Assembly (NCBI RefSeq): GCF_900187035.1
Contig: NZ_LT906446.1
Coordinates: forward strand, 744,001 to 808,000
Length of the DNA: 64,000 bases
Reading direction: 5' to 3'
Source: Megamonas hypermegale
Lineage (GTDB): Bacteria; Bacillota; Negativicutes; Selenomonadales; Selenomonadaceae
The first letter of the stretch is position 1; the number at the start of each line of letters is the position of its first letter. The notes below the pieces were generated by a model. That model searched no databases, was not told the DNA's origin, and saw nothing but the letters and a program-made list of their open reading frames with translations. The position numbers were made by a program, and so were the translations under genes. Of this stretch, positions 14,915 through 35,965 are shown one piece after another.

Positions 14915-16321
14915 ATGATTACTTTTTTTGTCAGTTTAATTGTTCTCATTTTAGGTTTCTTAATTTATGGTCGATTTGTAGAAAAGGTTTTTAAACCATC
15001 AACAAAACCAACTCCTGCTATAACGCATAATGACGGTGTAGATTACATACCGATGCCTACTTGGAAAGTTTTTATGATTCAATTGTTGAATATAGCTGGT
15101 CTTGGTCCAATTTTTGGGGCTATTGCAGGTGCTCTTTGGGGTCCAGTTGTTTATTTTTGGATTGTAATCGGTACTATTTTCTCTGGTGCTGTACATGATT
15201 ATCTTTCTGGTATGATTTCACTTCGCCATAATGGGGAAAGTATTTCAGAAATCGTAGGTATCTATCTTGGCGATACTATGAAAATAGTAATGCGTATATT
15301 CTCTGTTGTATTGTTGGTTCTTGTAGGTACTGTATTTATGACAGGTCCTGCGCTACTTCTCGCAAAACTTACACCAGATTCTTTAAATGTTACTTTTTGG
15401 TTAATCGTCGTACTCATTTATTATTTCTTAGCAACTTTATTACCTATTGATAAAATTATTGGTAAGATTTATCCATTGTTTGGTGCTTGCTTAATTATTA
15501 TGGCAGTTGGTGTATCTAGTGGTATTATTCTCGGTGGATGGCAAATGCCTGAAATGACACTTCAAAACCTTCATCCAAAAGATTTACCTATTTGGCCATT
15601 AATGTTTATCACTGTTGCTTGTGGTGCTACATCTGGTTTCCATGCTACACAATCTCCACTTATGGCACGTTGCATGAAAGAAGAAAAAAATGGACGTGTA
15701 GTTTTCTATGGTGCTATGGTTGCTGAAGGTATTATCGCTCTTATTTGGGCTTCTGCTGGTATTGCATTTTATGAAACAACTGGTGGTTTAGCAGCTGCTA
15801 TTGCTAGTGCCGGTCCTGGTGGCGTTGTATATGATGTATCCTTTGGTACATTGGGAACAGTTGGTGGTATCTTGGCAATGATTGGCGTTATTGCTTGTCC
15901 AATAACTTCTGGTGATACGGCTTTCAGAAGTGCACGTTATACTATTTCAGACTGGTTTAAAATTGACCAAGTTTCTTATGTTAAACGCTTGTATTTAGCT
16001 GTTCCACTTCTCGCTATTGGCGGTATCTTATCTCAAATTGATTTTGATATAATTTGGCGTTATTTCTCTTGGGCAAATCAAACATTAGCAATGATTGCTC
16101 TTTGGACAGGTGCTATGTACCTTTGGAAACAGTATAAAGGCAGTTGGCAACATTTAATCGCTGTTGTTCCTGCAATCTTTATGACAATGGTTACATTCAC
16201 TTATATTTTGCAAGCTCCTGAAGGCTTTGGATTGCCAACAAGCATCACTTATCCTGCTGGTATCATAATCACTATTTTCTGGACTATTGTTTACTTTAAA
16301 TCTACAGTATTTAAAAAATAA
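14915..16321 (+). CDS. cstA: Carbon starvation protein A family transporter
   Basis: 468 aa from the ATG at 14915, which is 10 bases from AAGAAGG; an in-frame TTG six bases earlier is too close. About 12 membrane helices; conserved GPIFGAIAGALWGP, SGAVHDYLSGM, TSGFHATQSPL and CPITSGDTAFRSARY segments of the CstA family. It is shorter than the E. coli proteins (about 700 aa), matching the short form common in Firmicutes. E. coli members are linked to peptide use and pyruvate uptake; the substrate here is not known. Stand-alone gene closed by its own terminator. Confidence 0.92.
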   Translation: MITFFVSLIVLILGFLIYGRFVEKVFKPSTKPTPAITHNDGVDYIPMPTWKVFMIQLLNIAGLGPIFGAIAGALWGPVVYFWIVIGTIFSGAVHDYLSGMISLRHNGESISEIVGIYLGDTMKIVMRIFSVVLLVLVGTVFMTGPALLLAKLTPDSLNVTFWLIVVLIYYFLATLLPIDKIIGKIYPLFGACLIIMAVGVSSGIILGGWQMPEMTLQNLHPKDLPIWPLMFITVACGATSGFHATQSPLMARCMKEEKNGRVVFYGAMVAEGIIALIWASAGIAFYETTGGLAAAIASAGPGGVVYDVSFGTLGTVGGILAMIGVIACPITSGDTAFRSARYTISDWFKIDQVSYVKRLYLAVPLLAIGGILSQIDFDIIWRYFSWANQTLAMIALWTGAMYLWKQYKGSWQHLIAVVPAIFMTMVTFTYILQAPEGFGLPTSITYPAGIIITIFWTIVYFKSTVFKK

Positions 16322-16333
16322 TATATGAAATGC

Positions 16334-16375
16334 AAAAAGCTACTGTTGGTATCGTTTTCAACAGTAGCTTTTTTT
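16334..16375 (+). terminator. Terminator after cstA
   Basis: AAAAAGCTACTGTTG (16334-16348) pairs with CAACAGTAGCTTTTT starting at 16359, followed by a T run to 16375. It can also serve the convergent zwf gene. Confidence 0.9.
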
Positions 16376-16386
16376 ATAGATAAATT

Positions 16387-17772
16387 TTAGAATATCCAGC
16401 TATGACCAAATCGTTTTAAAAGATTTTCAGCTTCAGCAGGACCATCACTGCCTGGTTCATATGAAAAAATCGGTAATTTATTCCAATGATATAAATCCTT
16501 TAAGTGTTCAACAAATTCCCAGCTAATTTCTATTTGGTCCCATTGAGAGAACCAAGAACGTTCTCCACGAATACAAGCCATGATTAATCTTTCATAAGCT
16601 TCAGGTGTATTTATTTTATTTATATAAGAAGAATTTTGAATGAAATTCATCTTAGCTTGTGTTATTTCATCAGTATCACCAGGTTTTTTTACATTGAATT
16701 GTAAATGAACGCCTTCATTTGGTTGAATTTTTATTATTAAAATATTTTGTGGTGCAGCAATAAATGTTTGACGGAAAACAATAGCTATTTCCATTTCACG
16801 ACATTTTAATTTTTTACCTGTGCGTATATAAAATGGAGTATTCCACCAGCGTTCATTGTCGATAAATAAGCGAAGTGCAGCATATGTTTCAGTATTAGAA
16901 TCAAGTGCTACATTTTTTTCTTGGCGATAACCTTTATACTGTCCTAAAACCATATTATCGCGAATATCTTCCACTTTGCGAAGTGATTTTAAAACGCGTA
17001 ATTGTGCATCATGCATAGCTTGAGTTGAAAATTGTTCTGGCCATTCCATTGCTACAATGGATAAAATTTGGAATAAATGGTTTTGTACCATATCTTTTAA
17101 TGCACCGCTTGTATCGTAATAATTGCCACGTGAACCGATACCTAAATCTTCAAAAGCTGAAATTTGGACTGATTCAATATATTGGGAGTTCCAGAGATTG
17201 GCAAAAATTGGATTGGTAAAGCGAATAGTTTGGATGTTACGAACCATTTCTTTACCTAAATAATGGTCAATGCGATAAATATTTTCTGCTGGGAAAAATG
17301 CTTCTAATTGTTCATTTAATTTTTTAGCAGCTTCTAAATTTTCGCCAAAAGGTTTTTCAAGAATAACTTTGCCTTTATCAGCGTTTTCTACAGAACGTAA
17401 ACCATGAGCTATTACAGCAAAAAAGCGTGGAGCTACAGCAAAATAAAAAATATATTCTGTAAGATTTTCTTCAGCATAAAATTTTGCTAATCGAGTGTAT
17501 TCTTCTAAATTAGAAAAATCCATTTTAAAATATGTTATGCGTTGACAAAAATGATTAAAAGTATCTTCATCATATGGCATTCTAGCAAATTTTTTTACCC
17601 AATCTTTAATGAGTTCGCAATATTTTTCAGTAGTATAATCGCGTCTACCGATAATTACAATGCGAAAATCTTTTTCTGGTGCATTAGATGCCGTTATATT
17701 ATATTGTGCTGGCATTAATTTGCGAAACGTTAAGTCTCCTGTTCCGCCGAATATCGTAAATGTTTTATTCAT
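16387..17772 (-). CDS. zwf: Glucose-6-phosphate dehydrogenase
   Basis: 461 aa from the ATG at 17772 (MNKTFTIFGGTGDL), placed 5-10 bases after GAAAGAGAG; an upstream in-frame TTG would overlap the pgl stop region and lacks a ribosome site. GGTGDLTFRKL is the dinucleotide motif, EKPFGENL holds the conserved lysine region, and RIDHYLGKEMV (about residues 166-176) is the active-site signature. It oxidises glucose 6-phosphate to 6-phosphogluconolactone, making NADPH. The lactonase gene lies 19 bp upstream in the same operon. No gnd gene is in the window. Confidence 0.96.
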   Translation of the reverse strand: MNKTFTIFGGTGDLTFRKLMPAQYNITASNAPEKDFRIVIIGRRDYTTEKYCELIKDWVKKFARMPYDEDTFNHFCQRITYFKMDFSNLEEYTRLAKFYAEENLTEYIFYFAVAPRFFAVIAHGLRSVENADKGKVILEKPFGENLEAAKKLNEQLEAFFPAENIYRIDHYLGKEMVRNIQTIRFTNPIFANLWNSQYIESVQISAFEDLGIGSRGNYYDTSGALKDMVQNHLFQILSIVAMEWPEQFSTQAMHDAQLRVLKSLRKVEDIRDNMVLGQYKGYRQEKNVALDSNTETYAALRLFIDNERWWNTPFYIRTGKKLKCREMEIAIVFRQTFIAAPQNILIIKIQPNEGVHLQFNVKKPGDTDEITQAKMNFIQNSSYINKINTPEAYERLIMACIRGERSWFSQWDQIEISWEFVEHLKDLYHWNKLPIFSYEPGSDGPAEAENLLKRFGHSWIF

Positions 17773-17791
17773 ATTAATCTCTCTTTCAAAT

Positions 17792-18757
17792 TTATAACTC
17801 AATATTTTCTAAAGCAATACCAACGCCATGAGGTACAGATATATCTGCTATTTCGTCTTGTATCATTCGCGTTTTCCTATCTAATTTATATATAATCAGA
17901 TTATCGCTATCCCTATTTACACATAATAAATACTGTTCATCATAACTTAATAAGAAATCTCGTGGATGTATGCCACTTTTTATTTGTTGTGATAATTGTA
18001 TATCATCTTTTACTTTGATTACACTCAGTAAATCAGCACCACGTGTAGAAATATAGATATAATTTTCATCTTTAGTGAGGCGTATAGCTGCTGAAGAAGC
18101 ACCTTCTGTAGGATATTTTTCTAATAAGTTAATTTTGGTGATAAGCTCAAAATTTAAATCATTTACAGAGTAAGCAAAAAATTCATTGCTAAGTTCACTG
18201 ACTAAATAGAAACGATTGTATTCTTTATTAAAAACTCCATGACGTGGACCTGTTTTTTGTGGAAATTTCCATACTTTTACAAGTTTAAAATCTTCGCTGC
18301 GTTTAAAAATGCGTATTTCATCCAATAATAAACATGGAACAAGTATATAATCGCCATATAAAATTACTTGGTGGCAACCAGCTTTTTCTTGAATAGTGAT
18401 TTGCTTAATTAGTGTTAATTTATCACCTTGTAATTTATATACCATAACAACGCCATCATGATAATTAGCTGTATATATATAACCATCACTATATTTAATG
18501 AAGCAAGGTGTTTTATTTTCATATAAAGCTTCATCGAGTAATTTAGCTGTATCTTCATTTAATAAACCAATACCACTTTTACCATCTTTATTCATGGTTA
18601 TGATTAATTTATCTTTAGCTAAAACAACGCATTTAGCATCATTTACTGGATAAAAAGATTTCATATCGAAAACTTTACCAGATTGTTCATCAAAATTAAA
18701 TTGATAAATACCTTTAGTATTAGGAGTATCATACGTACCGATATATCCTTTTATCAT
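17792..18757 (-). CDS. pgl: Lactonase-family beta-propeller protein (probable 6-phosphogluconolactonase)
   Basis: 321 aa seven-bladed beta-propeller of the YbhE-type lactonase family: GYIGTYDTPNTKGIYQF at the start, GPRHGVFN near residue 165 and SGIHPRDFLLS near residue 260 followed by NRDSDNL match the conserved blade motifs. Position directly ahead of zwf strongly suggests it hydrolyses the 6-phosphogluconolactone made by Zwf. Ribosome site AAGGAAG. The specific substrate is inferred from context. Confidence 0.85.
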   Translation of the reverse strand: MIKGYIGTYDTPNTKGIYQFNFDEQSGKVFDMKSFYPVNDAKCVVLAKDKLIITMNKDGKSGIGLLNEDTAKLLDEALYENKTPCFIKYSDGYIYTANYHDGVVMVYKLQGDKLTLIKQITIQEKAGCHQVILYGDYILVPCLLLDEIRIFKRSEDFKLVKVWKFPQKTGPRHGVFNKEYNRFYLVSELSNEFFAYSVNDLNFELITKINLLEKYPTEGASSAAIRLTKDENYIYISTRGADLLSVIKVKDDIQLSQQIKSGIHPRDFLLSYDEQYLLCVNRDSDNLIIYKLDRKTRMIQDEIADISVPHGVGIALENIEL

Positions 18758-18902
18758 ATTAAAACACTTCCTTATTTAATCAAAAATTAACTTTAATGAA
18801 TAATAATTATTCATGTTCTTATTATAGCATTTAATTTACTGATAATACAACTTATAAATACTAAGTTTTTCATAGAAAAATAATATATATATGATTAACC
18901 TC

Positions 18903-18931
18903 TTGCAAAAATTTCTTAAAAGGTCTATACT
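18903..18931 (+). promoter_or_regulatory. Promoter of the acylphosphatase gene
   Basis: TTGCAA (18903-18908), 17-base spacer, TATACT (18926-18931). The predicted start (about 18938) falls at the base of a hairpin, so the mRNA would begin in a stem-loop. Confidence 0.75.
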
Positions 18932-18935
18932 TAGG

Positions 18936-18967
18936 CTATCAATAAGATAAAAAATACTTATTGATAG
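18936..18967 (+). other. 5'-terminal mRNA hairpin of acyP
   Basis: CTATCAATAAG (18936-18946), ten-base AT loop, CTTATTGATAG (18957-18967): eleven perfect pairs. It coincides with the predicted 5' end. No U run follows, so it is not a terminator; an mRNA-stabilising 5' hairpin or protein-binding site is inferred. Confidence 0.6.
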
Positions 18968-19000
18968 ATTATCTTATTATAAAACAAAGGAGACTTTTTT

Positions 19001-19282
19001 ATGACAGATGTCAAACGTTACAAAGCTATTTTAACTGGTAGAGTACAAGGTGTAGGTCTTAGATTCTTTACAATGGAAAACGCTAGCAAATTAGGTCTTA
19101 CTGGTTGGGTAAAAAATATGGCAGATGGTACTGTACATTTAGAAGTACAGGGAGAAGATAGCGTTATCACTGAATTTGTAAATATCATCAAAAAAGGTAA
19201 TTTCATTATCAATGTAGAAACATTTGATGCAGAAGAAATTCCAGTTATTGAAGAAGAAAAAGCTTTTATCATTAGAAATTGA
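19001..19282 (+). CDS. acyP: Acylphosphatase
   Basis: 93 aa, typical size. GRVQGVGLRFFTMENA (residues about 13-28) holds the phosphate loop and catalytic arginine; GWVKNMADGTVHLEVQGE holds the catalytic asparagine (WVKN). It hydrolyses acyl phosphates such as acetyl phosphate or 1,3-bisphosphoglycerate. Single-gene transcript with its own promoter and terminator. Ribosome site AAAGGAGA. Confidence 0.96.
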   Translation: MTDVKRYKAILTGRVQGVGLRFFTMENASKLGLTGWVKNMADGTVHLEVQGEDSVITEFVNIIKKGNFIINVETFDAEEIPVIEEEKAFIIRN

Positions 19283-19318
19283 TAAATCTTTAGCGTTATA
19301 AGGGAATAAGAGAGAGTA

Positions 19319-19361
19319 AAGTCGATAAACTTTTATGGTCAAAAGTGTGTCGACTTATTTT
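19319..19361 (+). terminator. Terminator after acyP
   Basis: Two-tier hairpin: outer AAGTCGA (19319-19325) with TCGACTT (19350-19356) and inner ACTTTT (19329-19334) with AAAAGT (19341-19346), followed by ATTTTATTTT. Confidence 0.75.
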
Positions 19362-19414
19362 ATTTTACGGGAAAAAACCTTTATTTATAAGACTTTATAG
19401 AGAACTATTTTCTT

Positions 19415-19457
19415 TTTGTTACCGTTTGTTACCAATTTAGTTATATATAACTAAATT
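19415..19457. repeat. Direct repeat pair plus 24-bp palindrome downstream of the recombinase
   Basis: TTTGTTACC occurs at 19415-19423 and again at 19425-19433, a 10-bp period that puts both copies on one face of the helix. It is followed at once by a perfect 24-bp palindrome at 19434-19457 (arm AATTTAGTTATA). The recombinase gene ends 31 bp further on. The pattern resembles accessory protein sites near site-specific recombinases, or part of the terminator region; the function is inferred. Confidence 0.5.
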
Positions 19458-19488
19458 ATTATACATAGAAAATTATTATTTCATAAAA

Positions 19489-20496
19489 TCAATCTTTTTC
19501 ATTATCTAAATTAATTATAGACGTGTAACGTTTATCCATATTATTGTAAACATGTGCATATTTGCTGGTTATATTGATATCACTGTGCCTTAAAACTTCT
19601 TTTACTATCTGTAAATCTTTTGTTTTTGAATATATCAAAGTTCCACAAGTATGGCGCAGCATATGGCAGCTGATACCTGCTTTTTTATAGCCTGCTTTAT
19701 CTAGCCATTTATCTATATTGTAGCGAATACCACGTCTATCCATTCGCTTGCCTTTGCTGTAATTTGAAACAGCTGTAAAAACAGGTTCACCCAATTTATC
19801 TATTTTAGAGATATCAAAAGGACGAATATCGAGATATTCTTTTAAAATATTAAATACATCTTGTCGAGGATAAATAAAATCATTATGCCCTTTACCATGA
19901 ATATAAATTGTCTTCATATCCCAATTTATATCGCTTACAGACATTCGATAAACTTCCACTGTGCGCAAGCCTTCAAGTGCCATTAGCATGATTATAGCTC
20001 TATCGCGTAGGTAGTCCACATGTTTTCCATCATATTTAGGAATGATATTTAGCAAATGATTTAGCTGCTCAATTGTCAAAAATTTTAATGGAGAAATTTC
20101 GTTTGGTTCATACGCTTTTACGCCTACATCTTTGGCTGGACTAGTTTTTATCAAATTTAATTTCACTGCAATATTATAAAATTGTTTGATAGCATTTAAT
20201 TTTGATTTTATGCTACCTTTTTTCATTTTTGCTTTTAATAAATAATCTCTATAATACATAAATTGATATTCTGTAATTTCCAGTGGATGGCATTTGTTTT
20301 CTAAACACCACGTTATATATTGGTCTATTGCCGAATAATAATTGCGCAGAGTATCTTCTGAAGGTTCACCTTGTGACAAGTATCTAGCCAATAATGTTTT
20401 GTAATTTAACAGCAGTGTATTTTCATTGATTTCTTCTTGTTTAAGGTAATTTCCTGTTGCTAAAAATTTACCTTCTGTCATTTGAAAATTTTCCAT
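19489..20496 (-). CDS. Tyrosine recombinase (XerC/D-like integrase family)
   Basis: 335 aa. Residues about 25-115 form the SAM-like core-binding domain, 135-325 the catalytic domain. The catalytic set is complete by eye: R178 (LEGLRTVEV), K202 (GKGHND), H278 and R281 (HMLRHT), H304 (VLRHSDINIT) and the nucleophile Y313 (YAHV). It is longer at the N-terminus than ordinary XerC or XerD (about 300 aa). No excisionase, phage, transposon or conjugation genes surround it. An 11-6-11 dif-like site lies about 340 bp upstream of its start and a repeat/palindrome cluster lies just downstream. It could be a Xer-type chromosome resolvase or the survivor of a lost mobile element. Confidence 0.88.
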   Translation of the reverse strand: MENFQMTEGKFLATGNYLKQEEINENTLLLNYKTLLARYLSQGEPSEDTLRNYYSAIDQYITWCLENKCHPLEITEYQFMYYRDYLLKAKMKKGSIKSKLNAIKQFYNIAVKLNLIKTSPAKDVGVKAYEPNEISPLKFLTIEQLNHLLNIIPKYDGKHVDYLRDRAIIMLMALEGLRTVEVYRMSVSDINWDMKTIYIHGKGHNDFIYPRQDVFNILKEYLDIRPFDISKIDKLGEPVFTAVSNYSKGKRMDRRGIRYNIDKWLDKAGYKKAGISCHMLRHTCGTLIYSKTKDLQIVKEVLRHSDINITSKYAHVYNNMDKRYTSIINLDNEKD

Positions 20497-21209
20497 AATA
20501 TATCACCTTAATTTAGTTTTTTAATCATCTTTTTCTTAATACATAAATACCTATTATAAAATATTTTTAATAAGCATATAAATAAAAATATATAATATGA
20601 ATTAATAAATAATATATTTAAATATTTATTGTAAAATAGATAATTATTATTAATTTATATAAGTTATACTATAATATCATATATTTAATTGTAAATAAAC
20701 TTAATAATAAGAGCAATTTTAAGCAATTATTTTTTATTACCGCTTATGATTTATCGCAAAGAAATAAAAAATCGCTGTATTAAGCTACTAGAAGCTCTAA
20801 AATAAAATTGATTATTTTTGATGATTTTATTAAAATTTTACTTCCTATTTTTTATGAAATAGGTAGTTGAATTACATTAAATATATTACCATAAAAATTT
20901 TGACTTGAAAATTGCTTTTTAGGTTAAAATATTATACTGAATTTTTAAATATCTAAAATTATTATTTATAAATATATTATTATCTATAAATAATATATAA
21001 ATTAAACTAATAATACTTTATTTATATTAAATTATCATAAAAGAAAATAAGTTTATTGATAAAATATATCTATAATTCAATATAAAAATAATCTATTTAT
21101 ATTTATTAATTAATAGGAAATTACTTATAAAGAAACAGAAAGGGAAATTTTATGGTGATGAAGCTTTTCAGATGAAAAAATATCTTCTATAATAAAGATA
21201 TTATTTATT
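20497..21209. other. Gene-free, very AT-rich 0.7-kb gap
   Basis: No open frame with coding character or RNA gene was found. The stretch is rich in TAT/ATA runs and carries the dif-like element at 20840-20867. A possible weak promoter (TTGCTT at 20912-20917, TATACT at 20933-20938, spacing only 15) points toward the methyltransferase gene. AT-rich spacers of this sort occur at replication termini and at old integration sites. Confidence 0.5.
20840..20867. other. dif-like Xer recombination site (11-6-11)
   Basis: Left arm ACTTCCTATTT (20840-20850), six-base centre TTTATG (20851-20856), right arm AAATAGGTAGT (20857-20867). The arms are inverted repeats with one mismatch in 11. Arm and spacer lengths are those of dif sites, and the first eight bases, ACTTCCTA, equal the left arm of the B. 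subtilis dif as I recall it. The right arm differs from the classical XerD arm, so both halves look alike. Assignment is inference. Confidence 0.5.
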
Positions 21210-21224
21210 AGGAGGATTTTATTC

Positions 21225-22013
21225 TTGGCAATTGTAACGACAATTCGTAAAGTTAATGATGATTTGATAAAACGCGCGCAGAAAATAGCGGATTTTTTAA
21301 AGATAAAGTATGTTCCACGAGATAAAGCCGGTATATCTAAGTTAAAAGAAAGATATAATACTGATATTGTGTTAATAGTAAAGCAGGATAGCCTTATATT
21401 GGATTTGCCTGAAGGTGAGATGTTTTTTCATCCTAATATGGCACAAGTAAGGGTGAAGCGACTTCGCTACGGTGGCAATGATAATATGTTAGATGCCATG
21501 CAGGTAGAAAAAGGCATGCGCATTTTAGATTGTACACTTGGCTTTGCAGCTGATGCTATTGTAAGCAGTTATGGTGTAGGAGAAAAGGGTAAAGTCGTTG
21601 GGCTTGAAATAAATCCATTGATTAGTTTAGTAGTGAAAGAAGGCTTAAAGACGTATTTGCCAACAAATTACGATTTAAAATCGGCAATGGACAATATTGA
21701 GGTTATCAATCAGGATTATTTATCGTATTTAAAAGCACAACCAGATAATAGTTTTGATATCGTTTATTTTGACCCGATGTTCCGCCATGCATTATTAGAT
21801 AGCAAAAATCTCAGCCCACTTCGCCAATTAGCAGATAATGACCCTGTTTCGCTTGAAGCTATTAATGAAGCAAAACGCGTTGCTAAATATCGCGTTGTTT
21901 TTAAAGAAAACAGTCGTAGTTTAGAATTTGCCCGTTTGGGATTTGAGAAAATTTGCGGTGGGAAGTACGCACCAATTCATTATGGTGTTATAGAATTAAA
22001 TAAAGATTTATAA
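21225..22013 (+). CDS. Class I SAM-dependent methyltransferase (RsmJ-like)
   Basis: 262 aa, TTG start at 21225 with AGGAGG nine bases upstream. An N-terminal alpha/beta part (1-85) is followed by a Rossmann methyltransferase: ILDCTLGFAADAIVSS near residue 100, VVGLEINP, and VYFDPMFR near residue 183, the DP-M-F motif of the DUF548/RsmJ group of 16S rRNA guanine-N2 methyltransferases. That substrate is a family-level inference; other small-molecule or RNA targets are possible. Monocistronic with a clear terminator. Confidence 0.7.
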   Translation: MAIVTTIRKVNDDLIKRAQKIADFLKIKYVPRDKAGISKLKERYNTDIVLIVKQDSLILDLPEGEMFFHPNMAQVRVKRLRYGGNDNMLDAMQVEKGMRILDCTLGFAADAIVSSYGVGEKGKVVGLEINPLISLVVKEGLKTYLPTNYDLKSAMDNIEVINQDYLSYLKAQPDNSFDIVYFDPMFRHALLDSKNLSPLRQLADNDPVSLEAINEAKRVAKYRVVFKENSRSLEFARLGFEKICGGKYAPIHYGVIELNKDL

Positions 22014-22054
22014 AAAAACACCCTTGAATACGTATCGTTCAAGGGTATTTCTTA
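22014..22054 (+). terminator. Bidirectional terminator between the methyltransferase and the MTAP gene
   Basis: ACCCTTGAA (22020-22028), nine-base loop, TTCAAGGGT (22038-22046), with an A run before and a T-rich tail after, so it can serve both convergent genes. Confidence 0.85.
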
Positions 22055-22066
22055 TATCAAATGAAA

Positions 22067-22894
22067 TTAATCATCGTAAATGCCTTTTAATAAAGTTTCT
22101 TTGCGCAAGGAAAGACATTCACATTCTCTATCTTTAGTGGCAAGAGAGCGTATTGTATCGAGTAAAATTCTGCTAATCATTGGAGCATCATCGTAGAAAA
22201 TATCTTCTAATTCATCATGAGACCATGATTTGCGGATACCTTCGCCGTAGTTTACTACATAATAAAGACCTGCGTAGCAAGCACCGATTTCACGGGCAAG
22301 GTAAACTTCTGGGCAAATGGATTGACCAACGATATCGGCATGACCATTCATCATGGCAATTTCAGCAGGACTTTCAAAATGGCGGCCGTCTGTGTTTGCA
22401 TAAGTGCCACGTGTGAAAATACGACCAGAAAAATGTTTGCGTGTATTTTTTATGAGTTCAGCGCGCATTTGTGGACATAATGCATCGCGCATAACGAGCA
22501 GATATTTTCCTTCTAAGCCTACATCTTTGCGTACGGATAAATCGAGATAATCATCAGGAATGAGAAAATCTCTTGTGTCGAGCAATTTATTGACTGTACC
22601 TACGCCACCTTCGGAGAAAATGCGTTTTACTCCAGCTTCGCGGAATGTCCAGAATAATTGGCGGGAAGCATCAGCGCGGCTTACACCAGTGCGCCAACCG
22701 TGCATTTTGCAAGTTAAAACGCGTGTTCCAGCAACTTCGAATAAACGAAGTGCTGTAGTTTTGCCGTATGGTGTGTCAAAAATCATATTATCTTCGATTA
22801 TTTTTACATCATCACATTTTGCTCCAAGTGGAAAATTGCTAGAAAGTGTACCAGAGCCACCGATGATGGCAAAGTCTGCTTTTGGTATATTCAT
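22067..22894 (-). CDS. MTAP-family purine nucleoside phosphorylase
   Basis: 275 aa of the methylthioadenosine phosphorylase/PNP-MTAP family: ADFAIIGGSGTL start, the FSEGGVGTVN segment, MMNGHADIVGQSICPEVYLAREIGA region with the substrate-facing methionine, and a mixed alpha/beta core. Family members split methylthioadenosine, methylthioinosine or 5'-deoxyadenosine with phosphate. It is the last gene of an operon with one MqnC-like and two MqnE-like radical SAM enzymes. This suggests it removes the base from an (amino)futalosine intermediate in place of the MqnB/MTAN hydrolase, or clears the 5'-deoxyadenosine made by those enzymes. The role is inferred. Confidence 0.8.
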   Translation of the reverse strand: MNIPKADFAIIGGSGTLSSNFPLGAKCDDVKIIEDNMIFDTPYGKTTALRLFEVAGTRVLTCKMHGWRTGVSRADASRQLFWTFREAGVKRIFSEGGVGTVNKLLDTRDFLIPDDYLDLSVRKDVGLEGKYLLVMRDALCPQMRAELIKNTRKHFSGRIFTRGTYANTDGRHFESPAEIAMMNGHADIVGQSICPEVYLAREIGACYAGLYYVVNYGEGIRKSWSHDELEDIFYDDAPMISRILLDTIRSLATKDRECECLSLRKETLLKGIYDD

Positions 22895-22918
22895 ATGAAA
22901 AACTCCTTATTTTATTAT

Positions 22919-23950
22919 TTAAAAACGACGAATTATATTGTATTCAGTATCGCGTTGTGCGGCTTGTTTATCTGCTGTTTGAATTGTGCGTACCATTTTT
23001 TCAATAGACATTTGATAAGCTGTACCAGCAGCGCGAACGACATTTTCTTCTAACATGATACTGCCTAAATCATCAGCACCGAAAGCCAGTGTAATCTGTC
23101 CGATTTGTTGTCCCTGTGTAACCCAAGAGCCTTGAATATGGCTGATATTATCAAAATACAAGCGAGCTACAGCCAAGGTTTTTAAGTATTCCCAAGAAGA
23201 GAATTTATTACCGCCAAGTTTTGTATTGCCTGGCTGGAATGTCCACATTATAAATGCTCTAAATCCGCTTGTTTCATCTTGCAATTCGCGGATACGGCGC
23301 ATGTGTTCGATGCGTTCTTCGATGGTTTCGCCAAGACCGAGTACCATTGTTGCAGTGCTTTCCATGCCGATGCTGTGAGCCGTCTTCATTACATTTAACC
23401 AATCATCAGTCATGATTTTTTTCGGGCTTACCATTTTGCGCACGCGGTCAACGAGAATTTCAGCACCGCCACCAGGAAGTGAAGCGAGTCCTGCGCTGTG
23501 CAATTCACTTAATACATATTTTATGGATTTGCCAGAAATCTTAGCGAAGTGAAGTATTTCAGCTGGTGAAAAAGAGTGAATGACTATATCTGGATAAGCG
23601 TTTTTGATTGTGCTAATCATATTTATATAGTAATCAAATGGCAAAGATGGGTGTAATCCACCTTGAAGCATGATTTGAGTACCGCCAGCTTCTTGTGTTT
23701 CTTTTACTTTTTGTAAAATTGTTTCCATCGGCAAAAGATAAGCGTCTTTATGATGTTCAGGACGGAAAAAAGCACAGAAACGGCATTCATTGATACATAC
23801 ATTTGTGTAATTTATATTGCGGTCAACGATAAAAGTGACTGTATTGCCAGGGTGAAATTTTTGACGAACTTCATTAGCTTGTTTGCCAAGTTCTAAAATA
23901 TCACCGTGTTTTAAAAGCTCTATGGCTTCTTCATCAGAAAGTCTTGTCAT
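22919..23950 (-). CDS. mqnC: Cyclic dehypoxanthinyl futalosine synthase (MqnC-like radical SAM enzyme)
   Basis: 343 aa. Radical SAM cluster motif CX3CX2C at C52, C56, C59 (VCINECRFCAFFRPE). GGTQIMLQGGLHPSLPFDYY, LPGGGAEILVDRVR, WTFQPGNTKLGG and GSWVTQGQQIGQ follow the MqnC pattern rather than MqnE. MqnC closes the ring of dehypoxanthine futalosine in the futalosine route to menaquinone. Third gene of the four-gene minus-strand operon, 18 bp after the middle mqnE-like gene. Assignment to MqnC over its relatives CofH and MqnE is fairly secure. Confidence 0.85.
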   Translation of the reverse strand: MTRLSDEEAIELLKHGDILELGKQANEVRQKFHPGNTVTFIVDRNINYTNVCINECRFCAFFRPEHHKDAYLLPMETILQKVKETQEAGGTQIMLQGGLHPSLPFDYYINMISTIKNAYPDIVIHSFSPAEILHFAKISGKSIKYVLSELHSAGLASLPGGGAEILVDRVRKMVSPKKIMTDDWLNVMKTAHSIGMESTATMVLGLGETIEERIEHMRRIRELQDETSGFRAFIMWTFQPGNTKLGGNKFSSWEYLKTLAVARLYFDNISHIQGSWVTQGQQIGQITLAFGADDLGSIMLEENVVRAAGTAYQMSIEKMVRTIQTADKQAAQRDTEYNIIRRF

Positions 23951-23968
23951 GATAAAACCTCATTAATA

Positions 23969-25051
23969 TTAATCATTTTTTATTTCATTATAAAGTGAAT
24001 CACGCTGAACAGGAATATAACCAGCCGTGCGAATTATCTGTTCAAGTTGAGTTGTCGTCATTTTTTGACCAGTATGCGCTCCAGCAGCATGAATTATTTT
24101 TTCTTCTTCAACAGTGCCATCTAAATCATCAGCACCGCAAGCTAAAGCAAATTGAGCTATAGGCAGTGTAAGCATCATCCAGAAAGCTTTTATATGCGGA
24201 ATATTGTCTAAAACAAGACGAGATATCGCGATGAATTTTAAACTTTCATATGAAGTGATTGGCTTTATATCTGGAAAAGCTGTATTTGCTGGATGGAATG
24301 GGAACGATATAAACGCTTGAAAACCGCCCGTTTCATCTTGAATATCGCGCAAAGTGAATAGATGTTTTAAACGTTGTTCTATCGTTTCAACATGGCCATA
24401 AAGTTCTGAAGCATTCGTTTTCATGCCCATTTTATGCGCTGTTTTAATGGTGTAAATCCACTGCTCGCTTGTAGCTTTATTCGGGCAAATTATCTTGCGC
24501 ACTTCGTCATCTAATATTTCAGCACCACCGCCAGGCAATGAATCAAGTCCTGCCTCTTTTAAAATAGATAATACTTCATCAATCGTTTTACCACTGATAT
24601 TAGCAAAATGAACTATTTCCACTGGTGTAAATGCCTGAATATGCACATTTGGCAATAATTCTTTTATCGTCTTTAATATTTCAATGTAATAATTGAAATC
24701 ATTGTGCGGATGAAGTGAACTTACGATATGAATTTCTGTGAGATTTGGCACTGTAGCAATCGTATTTTTTATTTTAGCGATGACATCTTCTTTTGTGAGC
24801 ATGAAACCGCGTTTATCGCCTTCTTCACAGGAAAAAGCACATAGTGGACATGAGGCAGTGCATATATTAGATAAATTGATATGGCGGTTTATATTGTAAT
24901 AGACTTTTTGTCCGCTTTGGCGGATTTTTGCCTGTCTTGCCCAAATTGCCAAATCAATTAAATCGACATTTTCATAAAGATAAAGTGCTTCAGTAAAAGA
25001 AAGACGTTCACCATTTTTAGCTTTTTGTATAGCTGTTGTTTGTATTGACAT
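23969..25051 (-). CDS. MqnE-like radical SAM enzyme (aminofutalosine synthase family), copy 2
   Basis: 360 aa. CX3CX2C at C64, C68, C71 (NICTASCPLCAFSCEE, with an extra cysteine four residues on). LTEIHIVSSLHPHNDFNYYIE, LPGGGAEILDDEVR, FPFHPANTAF, HIKAFWMMLTLPIAQ and ADDLDGTVEEEKI match aminofutalosine synthase. MqnE joins a radical adenosyl group to the chorismate-derived acrylate. It is one of two adjacent MqnE-like genes; keeping two suggests one has changed partner or substrate. INRHINLSN before the cluster matches the usual MqnE text better than the first copy does. Confidence 0.75.
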   Translation of the reverse strand: MSIQTTAIQKAKNGERLSFTEALYLYENVDLIDLAIWARQAKIRQSGQKVYYNINRHINLSNICTASCPLCAFSCEEGDKRGFMLTKEDVIAKIKNTIATVPNLTEIHIVSSLHPHNDFNYYIEILKTIKELLPNVHIQAFTPVEIVHFANISGKTIDEVLSILKEAGLDSLPGGGAEILDDEVRKIICPNKATSEQWIYTIKTAHKMGMKTNASELYGHVETIEQRLKHLFTLRDIQDETGGFQAFISFPFHPANTAFPDIKPITSYESLKFIAISRLVLDNIPHIKAFWMMLTLPIAQFALACGADDLDGTVEEEKIIHAAGAHTGQKMTTTQLEQIIRTAGYIPVQRDSLYNEIKND

Positions 25052-25073
25052 AAAAAAATCCTTTACTGTTAAA

Positions 25074-26168
25074 TTAAAACGTTCTAATTATATTAAAATT
25101 GCAATCACATTCAGCAGGTATTCTGCCTGTTTGCTTGATTAGTGTAATTAAATTATCACGTGTCAAAGCTTTTGGCGAATTTGCTCCCGCATCGTGCATG
25201 ATTTTTTCTTCGCTGATAGTACCATCAATATCGTTTGCACCAAAACCTAATGCTAATTGTGCAATTGGCAAAGTGAGCATTACCCAATAAGCTTTAATAT
25301 TATGGATATTATCGAGCATTAAACGACAAATAGCCATTGTTTTTAAATCGTCCCAAACGCTTGTGCGCTGTACACTTTGACCGAGTTTTGTATTAGCAGG
25401 ATGGAATGGGAAACAAATAAAAGTCTGAATTCCGCCTGTTTCATCTTGAAGATTGCGCAACGTGATTAAATGGTCAACGCGTTCTTCTATCGTTTCGATA
25501 TGACCATAAAGCATGGAAGCATTTGTTTTAATGCCAAGGCTATGTGCTACGCGTGAAACTTCTAACCATTCACTTGCTGTAGCTTTATTAGGGCAGAGCT
25601 TATTTCTGATGCGGTCATTTAAAATTTCTGCTCCACCGCCTGGCATTGCTTCAATCCCTGCGTCTTTTAATTCTTGTAATACTTCGCGAATGGATTTACC
25701 GCTGATTTTGGCAAAATGCGTGATTTCTACACCTGTAAACCCTTTTAAATGAAGTTGTGGAAATTCTTTTTTTAACATTTTTATTACATCTACATAATAA
25801 GAAAACGGCCAATGAGGATGAAGACCGCTCACGATATGCAGATTTTTCATATTAGGGTCAAGGCATGCTCTTTTAACCTTTGCACGAATGTCGTCCATTG
25901 TCATGGCATAAGCGCGTTTATCCGTTTCTTCACAGCCAAAAGCGCAAAAATCACATAATGCAGTACACATATTAGTCAAATTTAAATGACAATTCACATT
26001 ATAATAAACGTAATCTCCGCTAATGCGTTTGCGTACTAAATCAGCAAGATAACCGATACGTGCTAAATCATTAGAGGCAAATAAATTGAGTCCGTCCTCT
26101 TTAGAAAGGCGTTCACCCTTTAAAACTTTTGCTTCAATTAAATCTAATGTATTTAAATTAGTTACCAC
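25074..26168 (-). CDS. MqnE-like radical SAM enzyme (aminofutalosine synthase family), copy 1
   Basis: 364 aa, GTG start at 26168 after AAGAGGTG. CX3CX2C at C68, C72, C75 (MCTALCDFCAFGCEE, with an extra cysteine). KNLHIVSGLHPHWPFSYYVD, MPGGGAEILNDRIR, FPFHPANTKLG, NIKAYWVMLTLPIAQ and ANDIDGTISEEKI place it with MqnE. It reads VNCHLNLTN where the neighbour has INRHINLSN, so an arginine is replaced by cysteine just before the cluster loop. First gene of the operon, divergent from the AEC transporter. Which of the two copies is the true MqnE cannot be told by eye. Confidence 0.75.
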   Translation of the reverse strand: MVTNLNTLDLIEAKVLKGERLSKEDGLNLFASNDLARIGYLADLVRKRISGDYVYYNVNCHLNLTNMCTALCDFCAFGCEETDKRAYAMTMDDIRAKVKRACLDPNMKNLHIVSGLHPHWPFSYYVDVIKMLKKEFPQLHLKGFTGVEITHFAKISGKSIREVLQELKDAGIEAMPGGGAEILNDRIRNKLCPNKATASEWLEVSRVAHSLGIKTNASMLYGHIETIEERVDHLITLRNLQDETGGIQTFICFPFHPANTKLGQSVQRTSVWDDLKTMAICRLMLDNIHNIKAYWVMLTLPIAQLALGFGANDIDGTISEEKIMHDAGANSPKALTRDNLITLIKQTGRIPAECDCNFNIIRTF

Positions 26169-26355
26169 GAAAACACCTCTTAATTTAAAATAAAACTAAT
26201 AAGATTTTACTCTCTTTTATGAAATAAAACAACTGTATACTATAAATAATATATAAACTTATTTATATATAAAATAATATTCATTTATAACCATGTTTAT
26301 TAATTTTGTTTATTGTGATAAAATTTGTATTATCTCAATTAAAGAAGGGATTATT
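26169..26355. promoter_or_regulatory. Divergent control region between the mqn operon and the AEC transporter gene
   Basis: AT-rich 187-base spacer. It must hold promoters for both directions, but only TATA-like tracts (for example TATACT at 26237-26242) are visible and no convincing -35 partner was found. Confidence 0.35.
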
Positions 26356-27300
26356 ATGGATAATTTAATTTTTAGTTTAAATGCTACTATACCAGTATTT
26401 TTAATGATGGTTCTCGGTATGATTTTCCGCAAAATCGGATTATTTGATGAAGCCTTTATCACAAAGATGAATAAATTTGTCTTTGTAGTAGCACTACCAG
26501 CACTTTTATTTGAAGATATCAGTACAGCAGATTTTACAACTGTATGGGATACTTCATATGTATTATTTTGTTTTATCGCCACTTTTTTAAGTATCACTTT
26601 AGCGTTCATCATTTCTATTCCATTTCGTCATAGCGTTTCACAAGGCGAATTTGTGCAAGCAGCTTATCGCAGTAGTGCCGCCATCATCGGCATGGCTTTC
26701 GTACAGAATATTTATGGCGATTACGGCATGGCATCGCTTATGATTATCGGCACAGTGCCGTTATATAATATTATGGCGGTCATCGTTTTAGCGCTCTTAA
26801 AGCCTGGACAAAGTTCACTCACACCTGCATTGATGAAAAAAACTATAAAAGGCATTATAACAAATCCAATTATTTTAGGTATTGTTGTCGGTGCTGTTTG
26901 GTCTTTATTAAAAATTCCAACACCTGTAATCTTAGATAAAACAGTTTCTTTTTTAGGTGTACTTGCAACACCGCTCGGACTCATGGCTATGGGCGCAGCA
27001 TTTAAATTCCAAAGCTTTAGCCAAAATATAAAACCGATTATAACTTGTAGCGTTATGAAATTAATCGGTTTTGTAGCCATATTCATGCCGATTGCTATAT
27101 ACATGGGATTTACACAAAGCAAACTCGTAGCAGCATTGATAATGCTGGGCTCTGCAACTACAGTAAGCTGCTATATAATGGCGCGTAACATGGGACACGA
27201 TGGCACACTCACCGCTGGAGCAGTCATGGTAACAACTCTCGGAAGCGCGTTTTCATTGACTTTCTGGCTTTATATATTAAAGTGTATGGATTTAGTATGA
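26356..27300 (+). CDS. AEC (auxin efflux carrier) family transporter
   Basis: 314 aa from the ATG at 26356 (MDNLIFSLNATIPVFLMM), six bases after AAAGAAGGGA; a longer in-frame start at 26293 has no ribosome site. About ten membrane helices in two five-helix halves; GMIFRKIGLFDEAFITKMNKFVF and the loop after helix 5 fit the family, which exports organic anions such as malate in some bacteria. Substrate here unknown. Divergent from the menaquinone-type operon. Confidence 0.88.
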   Translation: MDNLIFSLNATIPVFLMMVLGMIFRKIGLFDEAFITKMNKFVFVVALPALLFEDISTADFTTVWDTSYVLFCFIATFLSITLAFIISIPFRHSVSQGEFVQAAYRSSAAIIGMAFVQNIYGDYGMASLMIIGTVPLYNIMAVIVLALLKPGQSSLTPALMKKTIKGIITNPIILGIVVGAVWSLLKIPTPVILDKTVSFLGVLATPLGLMAMGAAFKFQSFSQNIKPIITCSVMKLIGFVAIFMPIAIYMGFTQSKLVAALIMLGSATTVSCYIMARNMGHDGTLTAGAVMVTTLGSAFSLTFWLYILKCMDLV

Positions 27301-27351
27301 AATAGATAAAAAAGGCATTTCTTGCCATTTTATTGCCATGATTAATTATTA

Positions 27352-27379
27352 TTGCAAAATCTATACAATATGCTATACT
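27352..27379 (+). promoter_or_regulatory. Orphan promoter of candidate small RNA 1
   Basis: TTGCAA (27352-27357), 16-base spacer, TGC then TATACT (27374-27379): a -35 box with an extended -10 box. No coding start follows; a hairpin terminator lies about 75 bases on. Confidence 0.65.
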
Positions 27380-27385
27380 AAATAT

Positions 27386-27456
27386 AGGCAAAACATGATA
27401 AATTGTCATATGGACACCAAAACCCCATGAAGCTAGCACCTTCATGGGGTTTTACA
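27386..27456 (+). ncRNA. Candidate small RNA 1 (about 70 nt), unassigned
   Basis: Between the AEC gene and the next RNA locus, an extended -10 promoter leads into a short stretch with no start codon plus ribosome site. It ends at a strong hairpin: AAAACCCCATGAA (27419-27431), loop, TTCATGGGGTTTT (27441-27453). The 5' part can form a weak ATGATAAATTGTCAT stem-loop. The 3' U run is only four bases, so termination may be incomplete. No known family recognised. It could be an Hfq-binding small RNA, or the hairpin may simply terminate AEC readthrough. Confidence 0.45.
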
Positions 27457-27534
27457 TAAGTGTTTATTATATTTTTTAGATTTAAGACATCAGTTTAGGT
27501 TAATATTAAATAATAGTTTTTATAAAAAGAAACA

Positions 27535-27562
27535 TTGACTTATAGTAGTTATTTGATATAAT
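27535..27562 (+). promoter_or_regulatory. Strong promoter of candidate small RNA 2
   Basis: TTGACT (27535-27540), 16-base spacer, perfect TATAAT (27557-27562). Predicted start about 27569. No open frame follows. Confidence 0.8.
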
Positions 27563-27568
27563 GAAAAT

Positions 27569-27662
27569 ATAAAGTCAACTTGTGATGGATAAGGCTGGGT
27601 TCCTGAATAGGAGTAGGCATTTGCTTAGAATTTCCTTTGCCCCTGGGGTTGACTTATTTTTT
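27569..27662 (+). ncRNA. Candidate structured RNA 2 (about 94 nt), unassigned
   Basis: Transcription from the TTGACT/TATAAT promoter gives an RNA closed by a long-range stem, AAGTCAAC (27571-27578) with GTTGACTT (27648-27655), followed by ATTTTTTT. The interior is clearly more GC-rich than the surroundings and includes a small hairpin, TCCT-GAAT-AGGA (27601-27612), and a CCCCTGGGG run next to the closing stem. It lacks the 4.5S RNA GGAAGGAAGCA core, tRNA T-loop, 6S and T-box marks. Its terminator overlaps the stop codon of the convergent DUF3644 gene. A real RNA gene is likely; its class is unknown to me. Confidence 0.6.
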
Positions 27663-28655
27663 TAATGATTTTTTTAGACTCTGAATAATGTTTTCAGGGT
27701 CTTTTTTTATTTCAGTATAAATTAAATCTAGAGCTTGATTACTATATGTATAGTTGGGTTGCTTATTTCTAGTATATTTATAACAATATTTATTATTTTC
27801 TTTTAGGTTATAGAATTTTACAAATAAACTGAAATGAAAAGAATTAAAAGTATGCTTTTTTTCTTCGTTTTTACAGTTAGGATTTATAAAGTTTAAATTA
27901 TCTTTTTTTATCCAACTATTGATAATTTCAATACAGCGTTTTGTATTATAAGGACACGATAATTGCATGTCTTTAGAGTCTTTTAATATATATGCAACTT
28001 GTTCTGCAGTTTTTGCAATAGAAAAAGTAGTTGTTGCGTGTTTTTTATCTTTTGTTAAAACAAAATCATGTCGTATAGTGATAGCAAAATTAGAATTATT
28101 TATTTTAGGAATATTTTCATTTATATCTGCAAAAGATTTTAATAATCTATTAGCAATTTCTTTAGGGTATCTTGCCTGTATATCGGATTCTTTTATATCA
28201 GATAATTTAACTGCTAAAGTTAAAAAGTTAGAATTTAGTTGTTCAGTAATGTCTATATTGAAAAATTCTAAGAGTTTATTAGTATAATTTATTACACAAG
28301 CTTGAAATAAAGGTATATAAATTTGCTCATATTCTTCAGTTATAAAATGTGTACTAATATTTCTTAATTCGATTATTTTTTCAAGATTTATGCGTAATGG
28401 GTCTTTATTATTAGTAAAAATTTTAGAAATGCAGTTTTCTAAAGTTATTGTACGATTAGGATTATCTTTATAATATATACTATTATTACCAAATTTATTT
28501 ATCAAATTGGCTTTTAACATTAATTCCCAGGCATTACAAATAAAAAAGCTAAAACCTTCGACACGATATTTTATTGTAGGTTTATTATACAGTTCTATTG
28601 CTAATATAAAAGCTTCTTGACTTTTTGTAATTAATTTATCTATTATTGAATTCAA
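27654..28655 (-). CDS. DUF3644 domain protein with HEPN-type motif
   Basis: 333 aa from a TTG at 28655, eight bases after AGGA; an ATG three codons earlier touches the ribosome site directly. The N-terminal part AFILAIELYNKPTIKYRVEG followed by FFICNAWELMLKA matches DUF3644. ELRNISTHF (R98 to H103) is an Rx4H motif of the kind that forms the active site in HEPN RNases. The C-terminal half is lysine/asparagine rich without a known domain. DUF3644 proteins are often found near restriction or other defence genes. No partner protein gene adjoins; a structured RNA converges on its 3' end. Function unknown. Confidence 0.7.
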   Translation of the reverse strand: MNSIIDKLITKSQEAFILAIELYNKPTIKYRVEGFSFFICNAWELMLKANLINKFGNNSIYYKDNPNRTITLENCISKIFTNNKDPLRINLEKIIELRNISTHFITEEYEQIYIPLFQACVINYTNKLLEFFNIDITEQLNSNFLTLAVKLSDIKESDIQARYPKEIANRLLKSFADINENIPKINNSNFAITIRHDFVLTKDKKHATTTFSIAKTAEQVAYILKDSKDMQLSCPYNTKRCIEIINSWIKKDNLNFINPNCKNEEKKHTFNSFHFSLFVKFYNLKENNKYCYKYTRNKQPNYTYSNQALDLIYTEIKKDPENIIQSLKKSLKK

Positions 28656-28770
28656 AATAATCATTCCTATTATTAATATTTGTTTTAAATAAAATATTTT
28701 TTATATTATAACATATATTATAATTTATTACGCAAACAATTTATTTATCCTATTCAGTACTAATAAAATA

Positions 28771-28797
28771 GAACCACCAATTTAAGTGGTGGTTTTG
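28771..28797 (-). terminator. Terminator of the small secreted protein gene
   Basis: ACCACC (28773-28778) and GGTGGT (28788-28793) form a hairpin just after the gene's stop; T-rich on both sides, so usable in either direction. Confidence 0.65.
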
Positions 28798-28799
28798 AT

Positions 28800-29036
28800 T
28801 TATGGACGGCATACTTTGCAAGGAATATAGCCACTATTCAATGCTTCTTCTCTACTACCAAAGTAAATTTTGTTTTCATCGTAAATCTGTCTTACATATC
28901 TACAGCTAGGATAATGAAATTTATCGGATTTAGCTGAACCGATATATGTATTAGCTAAAACAGTGGACATTGTAACTAATAAAGTGATTAAAGCTAATAA
29001 GATGATTGCAATTTGTTTTTTCGTGGATTTAAACAT
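28800..29036 (-). CDS. Small secreted protein with HxxxC...CxxC (Ada-like zinc) pattern
   Basis: 78 aa from the ATG at 29036, eight bases after AAAGAGG; a GTG three codons earlier overlaps that site. Residues about 7-28 are a signal peptide (KKQIAIILLALITLLVTM). The mature part has KFHYPSCRYVRQI, YFGSREEALNSGY and ends in PCKVCRP, the short motif seen at the C-termini of secreted nucleases and in Ada-type zinc sites (H/C...CxxC). It probably binds one metal outside the membrane. No catalytic residues, so role unknown. Confidence 0.75.
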   Translation of the reverse strand: MFKSTKKQIAIILLALITLLVTMSTVLANTYIGSAKSDKFHYPSCRYVRQIYDENKIYFGSREEALNSGYIPCKVCRP

Positions 29037-29150
29037 TATAAACACCTCTTTAAAATTATATCTCTTAGCGATTATACATAACTATAGTTAATTTGTCCAA
29101 TTCGGAAGTTAATTTTTAATTGATATAATTATTTTGGTATCTATAAATAG

Positions 29151-29185
29151 AAAACCCCATGAATTTATATTTTCATGGGGTTTTT
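29151..29185 (-). terminator. Terminator after the flavin reductase fusion gene
   Basis: AAAACCCCATGAA (29151-29163) and TTCATGGGGTTTTT (29172-29185) form a 13-pair stem with flanking A and T runs. The two arms are the same as those of the hairpin at 27419-27453, only the loop differs. Confidence 0.85.
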
Positions 29186-29192
29186 AGTATTA

Positions 29193-31775: not shown

Positions 31776-31900
31776 AAAATAATCCTCCAAATATAATATA
31801 TATTAAATTTATAAAATACAAAAAATATTCACTTTATAAATTATAAATCGTTTTGTTTATTTTGTATATATTTTTCAAAAAATTTATATATATTATGCAA

Positions 31901-31931
31901 AAAAGACCAATATTTAATATATTGGTCTTTT
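31901..31931 (-). terminator. Terminator of the helicase gene
   Basis: AAAAGACCAATAT (31901-31913) pairs with ATATTGGTCTTTT (31919-31931), 13 pairs with five-base loop; flanking A and T runs. Confidence 0.88.
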
Positions 31932-31938
31932 CGTCTAA

Positions 31939-34533: not shown

Positions 34534-34608
34534 GATAATCTCCTATATATTTAAATTGATTTTCCGTGATAAGCTAATATTATTATACACTATATATTTA
34601 TTAGAAAT

Positions 34609-34640
34609 AAAAGGCAGGTACTTTTTGTACCTGCCTTTTA
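34609..34640 (-). terminator. Terminator after the DUF4337 gene
   Basis: AAAAGGCAGGTAC (34609-34621), five-base loop, GTACCTGCCTTTT (34627-34639). Thirteen perfect pairs flanked by A and T runs. Confidence 0.92.
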
Positions 34641-35246
34641 TCATAATGTCAAATATTTATAATATGAACCGATAAAGATGCTAAAGCCGATAAATCCAGT
34701 TACAGCACCTATATACCAATAGTATTTTATCTTGCTGATTGCCGTGAGCGAAGATAATAAAATGCCTATTTGTAAAAAGATTAAAGCATTACCAAAATTT
34801 GCTGATATCTCTTTCGTAGCGAGATGTTTTTGTTCAGCTGATTTTGCCATTTGTGATAATGTGTATTCTTCTGCTTTATATTGAGCAATTTTCTGCTTGT
34901 AAGCTTCTTTTTTGGCATAGAGCTCTTCTTGTAATTTAGGATTATCTGTCAAATCAGTTTTTGCCAATTCAATTTCAATATTATAAAGTTCAGCTTCTAG
35001 CGTAGTCTTTTTTATCGTTTTTGCTTGATAATGTGACCAGTAGTTGAATGCCTCATTTTGACTGATTACCACCTGATTGCCAAGGCTTGCAGCTTTAAAT
35101 GAAGCGAGCGTGCCAACTACAGCTAAAATCAGAGTTGTTATCGCTACAATGGTTTTTAATCTTTTAGACCAAGCTTTAGTGATAATTTCCTCGTGATACT
35201 CCTTTATAATATTATCGTCATCTGTCTGTTTCCTATCGGGTTCCAT
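34641..35246 (-). CDS. DUF4337 family membrane protein
   Basis: 201 aa. One N-terminal membrane helix (residues about 31-52, TIVAITTLILAVVGTLASF), a periplasmic or cytoplasmic coiled coil (about 75-135, rich in K/E/Q), and two C-terminal helices (about 147-195). The GNQVVISQNEAFNYWSHYQAKT segment is typical of DUF4337. Function unknown. Read alone on the minus strand between the MerR and helicase genes. Confidence 0.75.
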   Translation of the reverse strand: MEPDRKQTDDDNIIKEYHEEIITKAWSKRLKTIVAITTLILAVVGTLASFKAASLGNQVVISQNEAFNYWSHYQAKTIKKTTLEAELYNIEIELAKTDLTDNPKLQEELYAKKEAYKQKIAQYKAEEYTLSQMAKSAEQKHLATKEISANFGNALIFLQIGILLSSLTAISKIKYYWYIGAVTGFIGFSIFIGSYYKYLTL

Positions 35247-35313
35247 AAATCATCTCTTTCTTTTAATATAAGTTTATAAATTATTGTAATAATTATACAT
35301 GATTTTAATCCGT

Positions 35314-35721
35314 TTAGCAATCAATATTATCATTTGTTTTAATGGTTTGTTCTTTTAATTTCTTTTCAGCTGGTATGATGATTTCTTCATAGCGGTCTAC
35401 TTTTTTATTAAGACGTTCAATGACTAAATTCATCACATCTATTTTCTTTTGCAGGCGGTCACGTTGTTCTTTTAATATTTCTTTGCGCGCTTCGGCTGTG
35501 CCTTCTTGATAGAATAATTTGATATAATCGATGAGTGCCTCTATTTCCACGCCAGCGCTTCGCATGCATTTTACAAATTCAATCCAATTACAAGAAACTT
35601 CATCGAAATCGCGAATGCCATTTGATTTGCGCGGAATTGGCGGTAAAAGACCAATGCGTTCATAATATCTGATTGTATCAGCGGAGATATCGTATTTTTC
35701 ACTTACTTCTTTTATAGTCAT
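35314..35721 (-). CDS. MerR family transcriptional regulator
   Basis: 135 aa. Winged helix-turn-helix EVSEKYDISADTIRYYERIGLLPP at the N-terminus, then a dimerisation coiled coil (about 75-120). Cysteines at VSCNWIEFVKCMRSAG resemble the aldehyde/thiol-responsive AdhR/NmlR branch, but this is only a likeness. Its own promoter has the 19-bp spacer and central dyad typical of MerR control, so it is probably autoregulated. No obvious target enzyme gene adjoins; the nearest neighbours are a TSUP transporter and DUF4337. Confidence 0.88.
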   Translation of the reverse strand: MTIKEVSEKYDISADTIRYYERIGLLPPIPRKSNGIRDFDEVSCNWIEFVKCMRSAGVEIEALIDYIKLFYQEGTAEARKEILKEQRDRLQKKIDVMNLVIERLNKKVDRYEEIIIPAEKKLKEQTIKTNDNIDC

Positions 35722-35755
35722 AATATCAACTCCTTAGATTGTCATGCTTGATTTC

Positions 35756-35786
35756 ATAATACCATTTGAAGTCGGCTTCAAGTCAA
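35756..35786 (-). promoter_or_regulatory. MerR-type promoter/operator of the regulator gene
   Basis: On the minus strand TTGACT (35786-35781) and TATTAT (35761-35756) are separated by 19 bases, the overlong spacer that MerR activators correct by twisting DNA. Within it lies a dyad, TTGAAG (35766-35771) and CTTCAA (35776-35781), centred between the boxes. Confidence 0.75.
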
Positions 35787-35935: not shown

Positions 35936-35965
35936 GTATATATTTTCAATATTAAATTTCTATTT

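Follow-up and report, generated by a model that had tools for sequence, protein, structure and literature searches.

The question raised by this locus is how chromosome dimers are resolved in a bacterium that carries one Xer-like recombinase gene beside a 28-bp palindrome at its replication terminus. FtsK couples dimer resolution to division and controls Xer recombination in most bacteria. The window considered here is a stretch of 64,000 nucleotides from the chromosome of Megamonas hypermegale (genome G000, one contig of 2,230,342 bp), and its features are listed in Table 1. It was compared with the same-genus species G007 (both forming genus g1), with five genomes of the sister genus g6, and with g8, another genus of Selenomonadaceae, where the site was counted in 14 genomes and 12 non-g8 genomes served as comparison. 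We predict from these sequences that the 28-mer is a dif-equivalent dimer-resolution site and that the adjoining gene encodes its one recombinase, a reading to which we assign a probability of about 0.85. The two would probably constitute a single-recombinase Xer/dif system that is independent of FtsK.

Table 1. Features of the window that bear on the predicted dimer-resolution system (positions in the 64,000-nucleotide stretch)
Feature	Position	Strand	Basis
Single Xer-like tyrosine recombinase P0001, 335 aa	19489..20496	-	Phage_integrase, 5.3e-29
Intergenic region, 728 bp, divergent genes (recombinase minus, methyltransferase plus)	20497..21224	.	
Predicted dif-like recombination site, 28 bp	20840..20867	+	single copy, conservation, compensated arm changes
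First arm of the site	20840..20850		
Asymmetric centre of the site	20851..20856		
Second arm of the site	20857..20867		
Plateau of cumulative GC skew, taken as the replication terminus	16000..38000	.	sampled skew

The site reads ACTTCCTATTT-TTTATG-AAATAGGTAGT and opens with the eight bases ACTTCCTA. A preliminary description of this DNA had noted a dif-like 11-6-11 geometry with one mismatch and the identity of the first eight bases to the left arm of the Firmicutes dif, and both statements hold: the arms pair at 10 of 11 positions around the 6-bp centre, with one mismatch between them in the window species, and the shared bases are indeed ACTTCCTA. The 11-6-11 shape alone proves nothing, because at least one such palindrome with at least 10 pairs was present in 34% of 300 dinucleotide shuffles of the AT-rich 728-bp gap carrying the 28-mer, and this third of the shuffles is what speaks for a chance AT-rich palindrome, or a terminator, beside an unrelated integrase. 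The palindrome together with an arm starting with ACTTCCTA was found in 0/300 shuffles of the gap. Between G000 and G007 the 28-mer is identical at 27 of 28 positions, while the other 28-mers of the gap reach 23/28 at best and 18.7 on average; the site is therefore considered real, being conserved in a gap that otherwise aligns at chance level. A transcription terminator was rejected, since both flanking genes point away from the gap and none is needed there. Chance is further contradicted by the compensated arm changes between g1 and g6, by the terminus position in several genera and by the outcome of the g8 prediction in 14/14 genomes (see below), and we give it next to no weight. In the 2.23-Mb genome G000 the 28-mer is present in a single copy, even if up to 3 mismatches are allowed. 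Viral contigs searched for the g1 and g6 sites contained no copy, and genome-contig scans using the recombinase protein and a 23-mer gave no match.

The recombinase gene starts 344 bp from the 28-mer, in agreement with the complete tyrosine recombinase gene previously placed about 340 bp away. Besides the Phage_integrase domain, P0001 has a SAM-like N-terminal domain, and its catalytic residues are R178, K202, H278, R281, H304, and Y313, all of which except H304 are invariant across 22 homologues. It scores 136.2 bits against the XerC model (cut-off 335) and 130.4 bits against the XerD model (cut-off 329.6). The profile of the P0001 family matched XerD at 93.5 bits, XerA at 77.7, and an XerH chain at 64, and XerH was absent among the model hits. 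When the homologues, without the longest-branched ones, were placed in a tree together with XerC and XerD sequences from their class, a branch with full SH-aLRT support set 34/34 of them to one side; by this phylogeny, the P0001 clade is separate from XerC and XerD. The only other Phage_integrase gene in the complete genome G000 encodes a 388-aa integrase located elsewhere, and therefore this genome has no XerC/XerD pair, a point that the preliminary description had left to be checked. Its statement that other mobile genes are missing nearby also stands, as none were recognized beside the recombinase within the window. The product of a gene at 27654-28664 of the window combines DUF3644 with a restriction-endonuclease-like domain of the EC042_2821 type and may be related to defence.

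The change of gene strand around the site had been taken earlier as the place where two replication forks meet. Cumulative GC skew, computed from separate sampled stretches of each genome, agrees with this: in G000 the skew is positive to the left of the site and negative to the right, and the switch lies at the site, in the form of a broad maximum with a plateau of about 20 kb that spans it. The dnaA gene is at 1,934.8 kb, so its antipode falls at about 819.7 kb, and the site, at 764.85 kb, is 2.5% of the genome from the antipode. In G007, the local skew maximum (1,264,236) and the site (1,265,406) are about 1.2 kb apart, and the genes flanking the site have nothing in common with those in the window. 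As the terminus position is kept though the flanking genes wholly differ, the module follows the terminus and not the gene neighbourhood.

In the five g6 genomes, the site is AAGTCCTATTT-TTTATG-AAGTAGGACTT, with the centre TTAATG in one of them. Two double changes between g1 and g6 are compensated, C2A with G27T and T3G with A26C. Covariation was counted only for sites homologous by position or sequence, and the symmetry of the palindromes upstream of the roughly 40% homologues was excluded, because these were found by a palindrome scan. The two arms thus change together between genera, as would suit a single-recombinase system, which the likeness of the arms had already suggested. In other genera the arms resemble DnaA boxes (TTATCCACA), but this likeness was discounted in view of their variation from genus to genus and the asymmetry of the centre. 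All g1 and g6 genomes have a full-length recombinase copy of the P0001 type, and in 7/7 of them the palindrome lies upstream of the recombinase gene, 93-390 bp from its start. Such an arrangement would also fit an operator, unrelated to dimers, through which the recombinase itself or a regulator controls the recombinase gene. However, between the g6 genomes G075 and G066 the recombinase gene is inverted in place and the orientation of the site relative to the flanking genes is unchanged, and the position of the site tracks the skew flip, not the neighbouring genes.

The operator is also contradicted by genus g8. Its gene lies elsewhere, at a distance of 190-380 kb from dnaA, and the region upstream of the gene yielded no AT-rich palindrome of the type found in other genera. 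A perfect 11-6-11 palindrome, ACTATCCATAA-TTACCA-TTATGGATAGT, was detected at the skew flip of G008 by looking near the dnaA antipode, and was predicted from this genome to occur genus-wide. The g8 genomes then proved to have one copy each (14/14), and the non-g8 genomes none (0/12). In 4/4 complete genomes tested (G008, G068, G101, and G123, the skew of the last three being read from newly sampled DNA), the palindrome is at most 4-5 kb from the skew flip, with distances of no more than 4 kb in the last three. In most of the 14 genomes, ftsK is located some 6-16 kb from the palindrome and shares its contig. All 14 sites have the asymmetric centre in common and their flanks diverge; in two genomes (G055/G106) an outer-arm change is compensated, A1G with T28C. 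A single-copy terminus site away from the gene, with compensated arms, argues against both an operator and a chance palindrome, and we consider the operator very improbable. The related genomes resemble the window genome in having the site at the skew switch of the respective chromosome. In viral contigs, the g8 site occurs in one copy, in DNA identical to the G036 chromosome. In IMGVR_UViG_2513237316_000002, the predicted provirus stretch ends about 730 bp beyond a g8 dif-like site, and a prophage may adjoin it.

Nearly all bacteria are described as possessing XerCD and FtsK (PMC5357621). In a survey of 200 genomes of the class, roughly 45 of them from Selenomonadaceae, the XerD cut-off was reached by 101/200 genomes, and by none of the Selenomonadaceae sampled. 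Classical dif, defined by unlike arms with the XerD arm TTATGTNAANN, is present in several XerCD-bearing genomes and was not found in the XerCD-less genomes tested. The Selenomonadaceae genera g10, g12, g30, g7, and g19 have neither XerCD nor a P0001-type gene. In g12 (G012, G039, G057, and others), FtsK and XerD are missing, as is a close P0001 homologue, the recombinase having only weak distant matches there. Families f4, f13, f25, f28, and f35 have no XerD over the cut-off and no close P0001 homologue among the matches listed.

The FtsK motor is matched at about 1e-70 in most genera of Selenomonadaceae. Profile searches detected no FtsK motor in 2/2 g1 and 5/5 g6 genomes, two of the latter having only partial, weaker motor matches that were not assigned to FtsK, and the three of these genomes searched for the FtsK gamma domain (G000, G007, and G005) lack it as well. 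An assembly gap is an unlikely cause of this absence, because G000 is 99.99% complete. The missing FtsK, the recombinase clade apart from XerC and XerD, and the family-wide extent of the system all go beyond the preliminary description.

Homologues of the recombinase are distributed more widely. For instance, the homologue is located at the skew switch in G103 (Selenomonadaceae), at most about 10 kb from it in G218 (family f29, no XerD), and about 25 and 80 kb from it in G166 and G177, respectively, both of which have XerD. Some families (f10, f11, f17) have both XerCD and a homologue, so that the gene is not in every case the only Xer present. In G159 (C2:307.6-309.1 kb), a genome with XerCD, about 430 bp separate the palindrome of the homologue from a classical dif that is intact. 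G202, which has no XerD, has an arm, ACGTCCTATAA, identical to the left one of classical dif in G248, a genome of the same family. Palindromes with Xer-type inner bases, such as ACTCCTTATAA-GTATAA-TTATAAGGAGT, precede wider homologues. Plasmid-borne relatives, some of them on large plasmids, were found in Selenomonas, Alicyclobacillus, Trichlorobacter, and cyanobacteria. Plasmid pSRC1 of Selenomonas ruminantium TAM6421 (285,449 bp) carries a homologue, and on a Trichlorobacter plasmid AATATACATAA-TTACCC-TTATATATACT, which is close to the g8 site, lies 330 bp upstream of the relative.

The relatives on plasmids, the several gene copies in some g16 genomes, and the G159 module near classical dif could also mean that the gene is the integrase, or its remnant, of a mobile element targeting the terminus, with the palindrome as its attachment site; mobile elements are known to target dif sites (PMC5357621). 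We regard this as unlikely, since the gene has no other recognized mobile genes beside it in the window and is kept at full length throughout g1 and g6, the site is present in one copy and not in two flanking copies, and no XerC/XerD remains for dimer resolution.

Returning to the predicted dimer-resolution system, its origin as a plasmid multimer resolvase is probable, because the recombinase lineage is also found on large plasmids. Such a resolvase probably replaced XerCD/dif in Selenomonadaceae, after which a loss of FtsK in the g1/g6 branch would have been possible. We lean, with some reserve, towards the full sequence of events, in which a plasmid-type recombinase and its palindrome displaced XerCD/dif across the family and FtsK was then lost in the clade of the window, leaving a natural case of FtsK-free dimer resolution. 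Under displacement, XerCD families with the gene at or near the terminus, such as that of G159 beside classical dif, would be intermediate states.

No paper on this single-recombinase, FtsK-less system of Selenomonadaceae was found in the literature searched. As regards the shape of the site, the nearest parallel among bacteria is the XerL/dif system of Legionellales, whose dyad arms are uninterrupted (PMC9765430). As described, it resembles the window system in its single recombinase, single-copy near-terminus site, long uninterrupted inverted-repeat arms, and lack of XerC/XerD (PMC9765430). It differs in belonging to another phylum, in the distance of the L. pneumophila xerL gene from dif (more than 400 kb versus 344 bp here, though gene and site are unlinked in g8 too), and in the FtsK homologue of Legionella, none having been found in the genus of the window. 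XerS/difSL of streptococci and lactococci and XerH/difH of Helicobacter and Campylobacter likewise have one recombinase of similar length in a gene-site module (PMC5357621). However, P0001 scores 83.6 bits against the XerS model (cut-off 267) and difSL is 31 bp long, whereas XerH is matched less strongly by the P0001 family profile than XerD is, and depends on FtsK (PMC5357621), which was not found here. Archaeal XerA/dif combines a single recombinase with a 28-bp site in the terminus region and is described as FtsK-independent (PMC2958812, PMC5357621), but P0001 scores 121.1 bits against the XerA model (cut-off 220), and the window system is bacterial, with arms nearly identical to each other. 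Finally, XerCD/dif of Firmicutes shares the 11-6-11 geometry, and the Bacillus-type dif has ACTTCCTA in its left arm. The window system departs from it in its single recombinase, in two arms that both resemble the left (XerC-side) one, and in the absence of FtsK.

From the site and the gene content we infer binding, recombination, dimer resolution, and independence of FtsK as follows. The near-identical arms would be occupied by two recombinase protomers, synapsis would join the sister sites of a chromosome dimer, and strand exchange around TTTATG, the asymmetric 6-bp centre that would set the direction, would convert the dimer into two monomers. Since g1 and g6 are without XerC, XerD, and FtsK, the proposed reaction would require neither the FtsK pump nor activation by FtsK-gamma, as has been proposed for archaeal XerA.

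A family without XerD, with a branch that is also without FtsK, raises the question of how dimers get sorted without a pump, and FtsK-independent resolution in bacteria becomes directly testable. Moreover, these genomes provide a series of states for the replacement of an essential machine: XerCD with a second system nearby, a single system with FtsK, and a single system without it.
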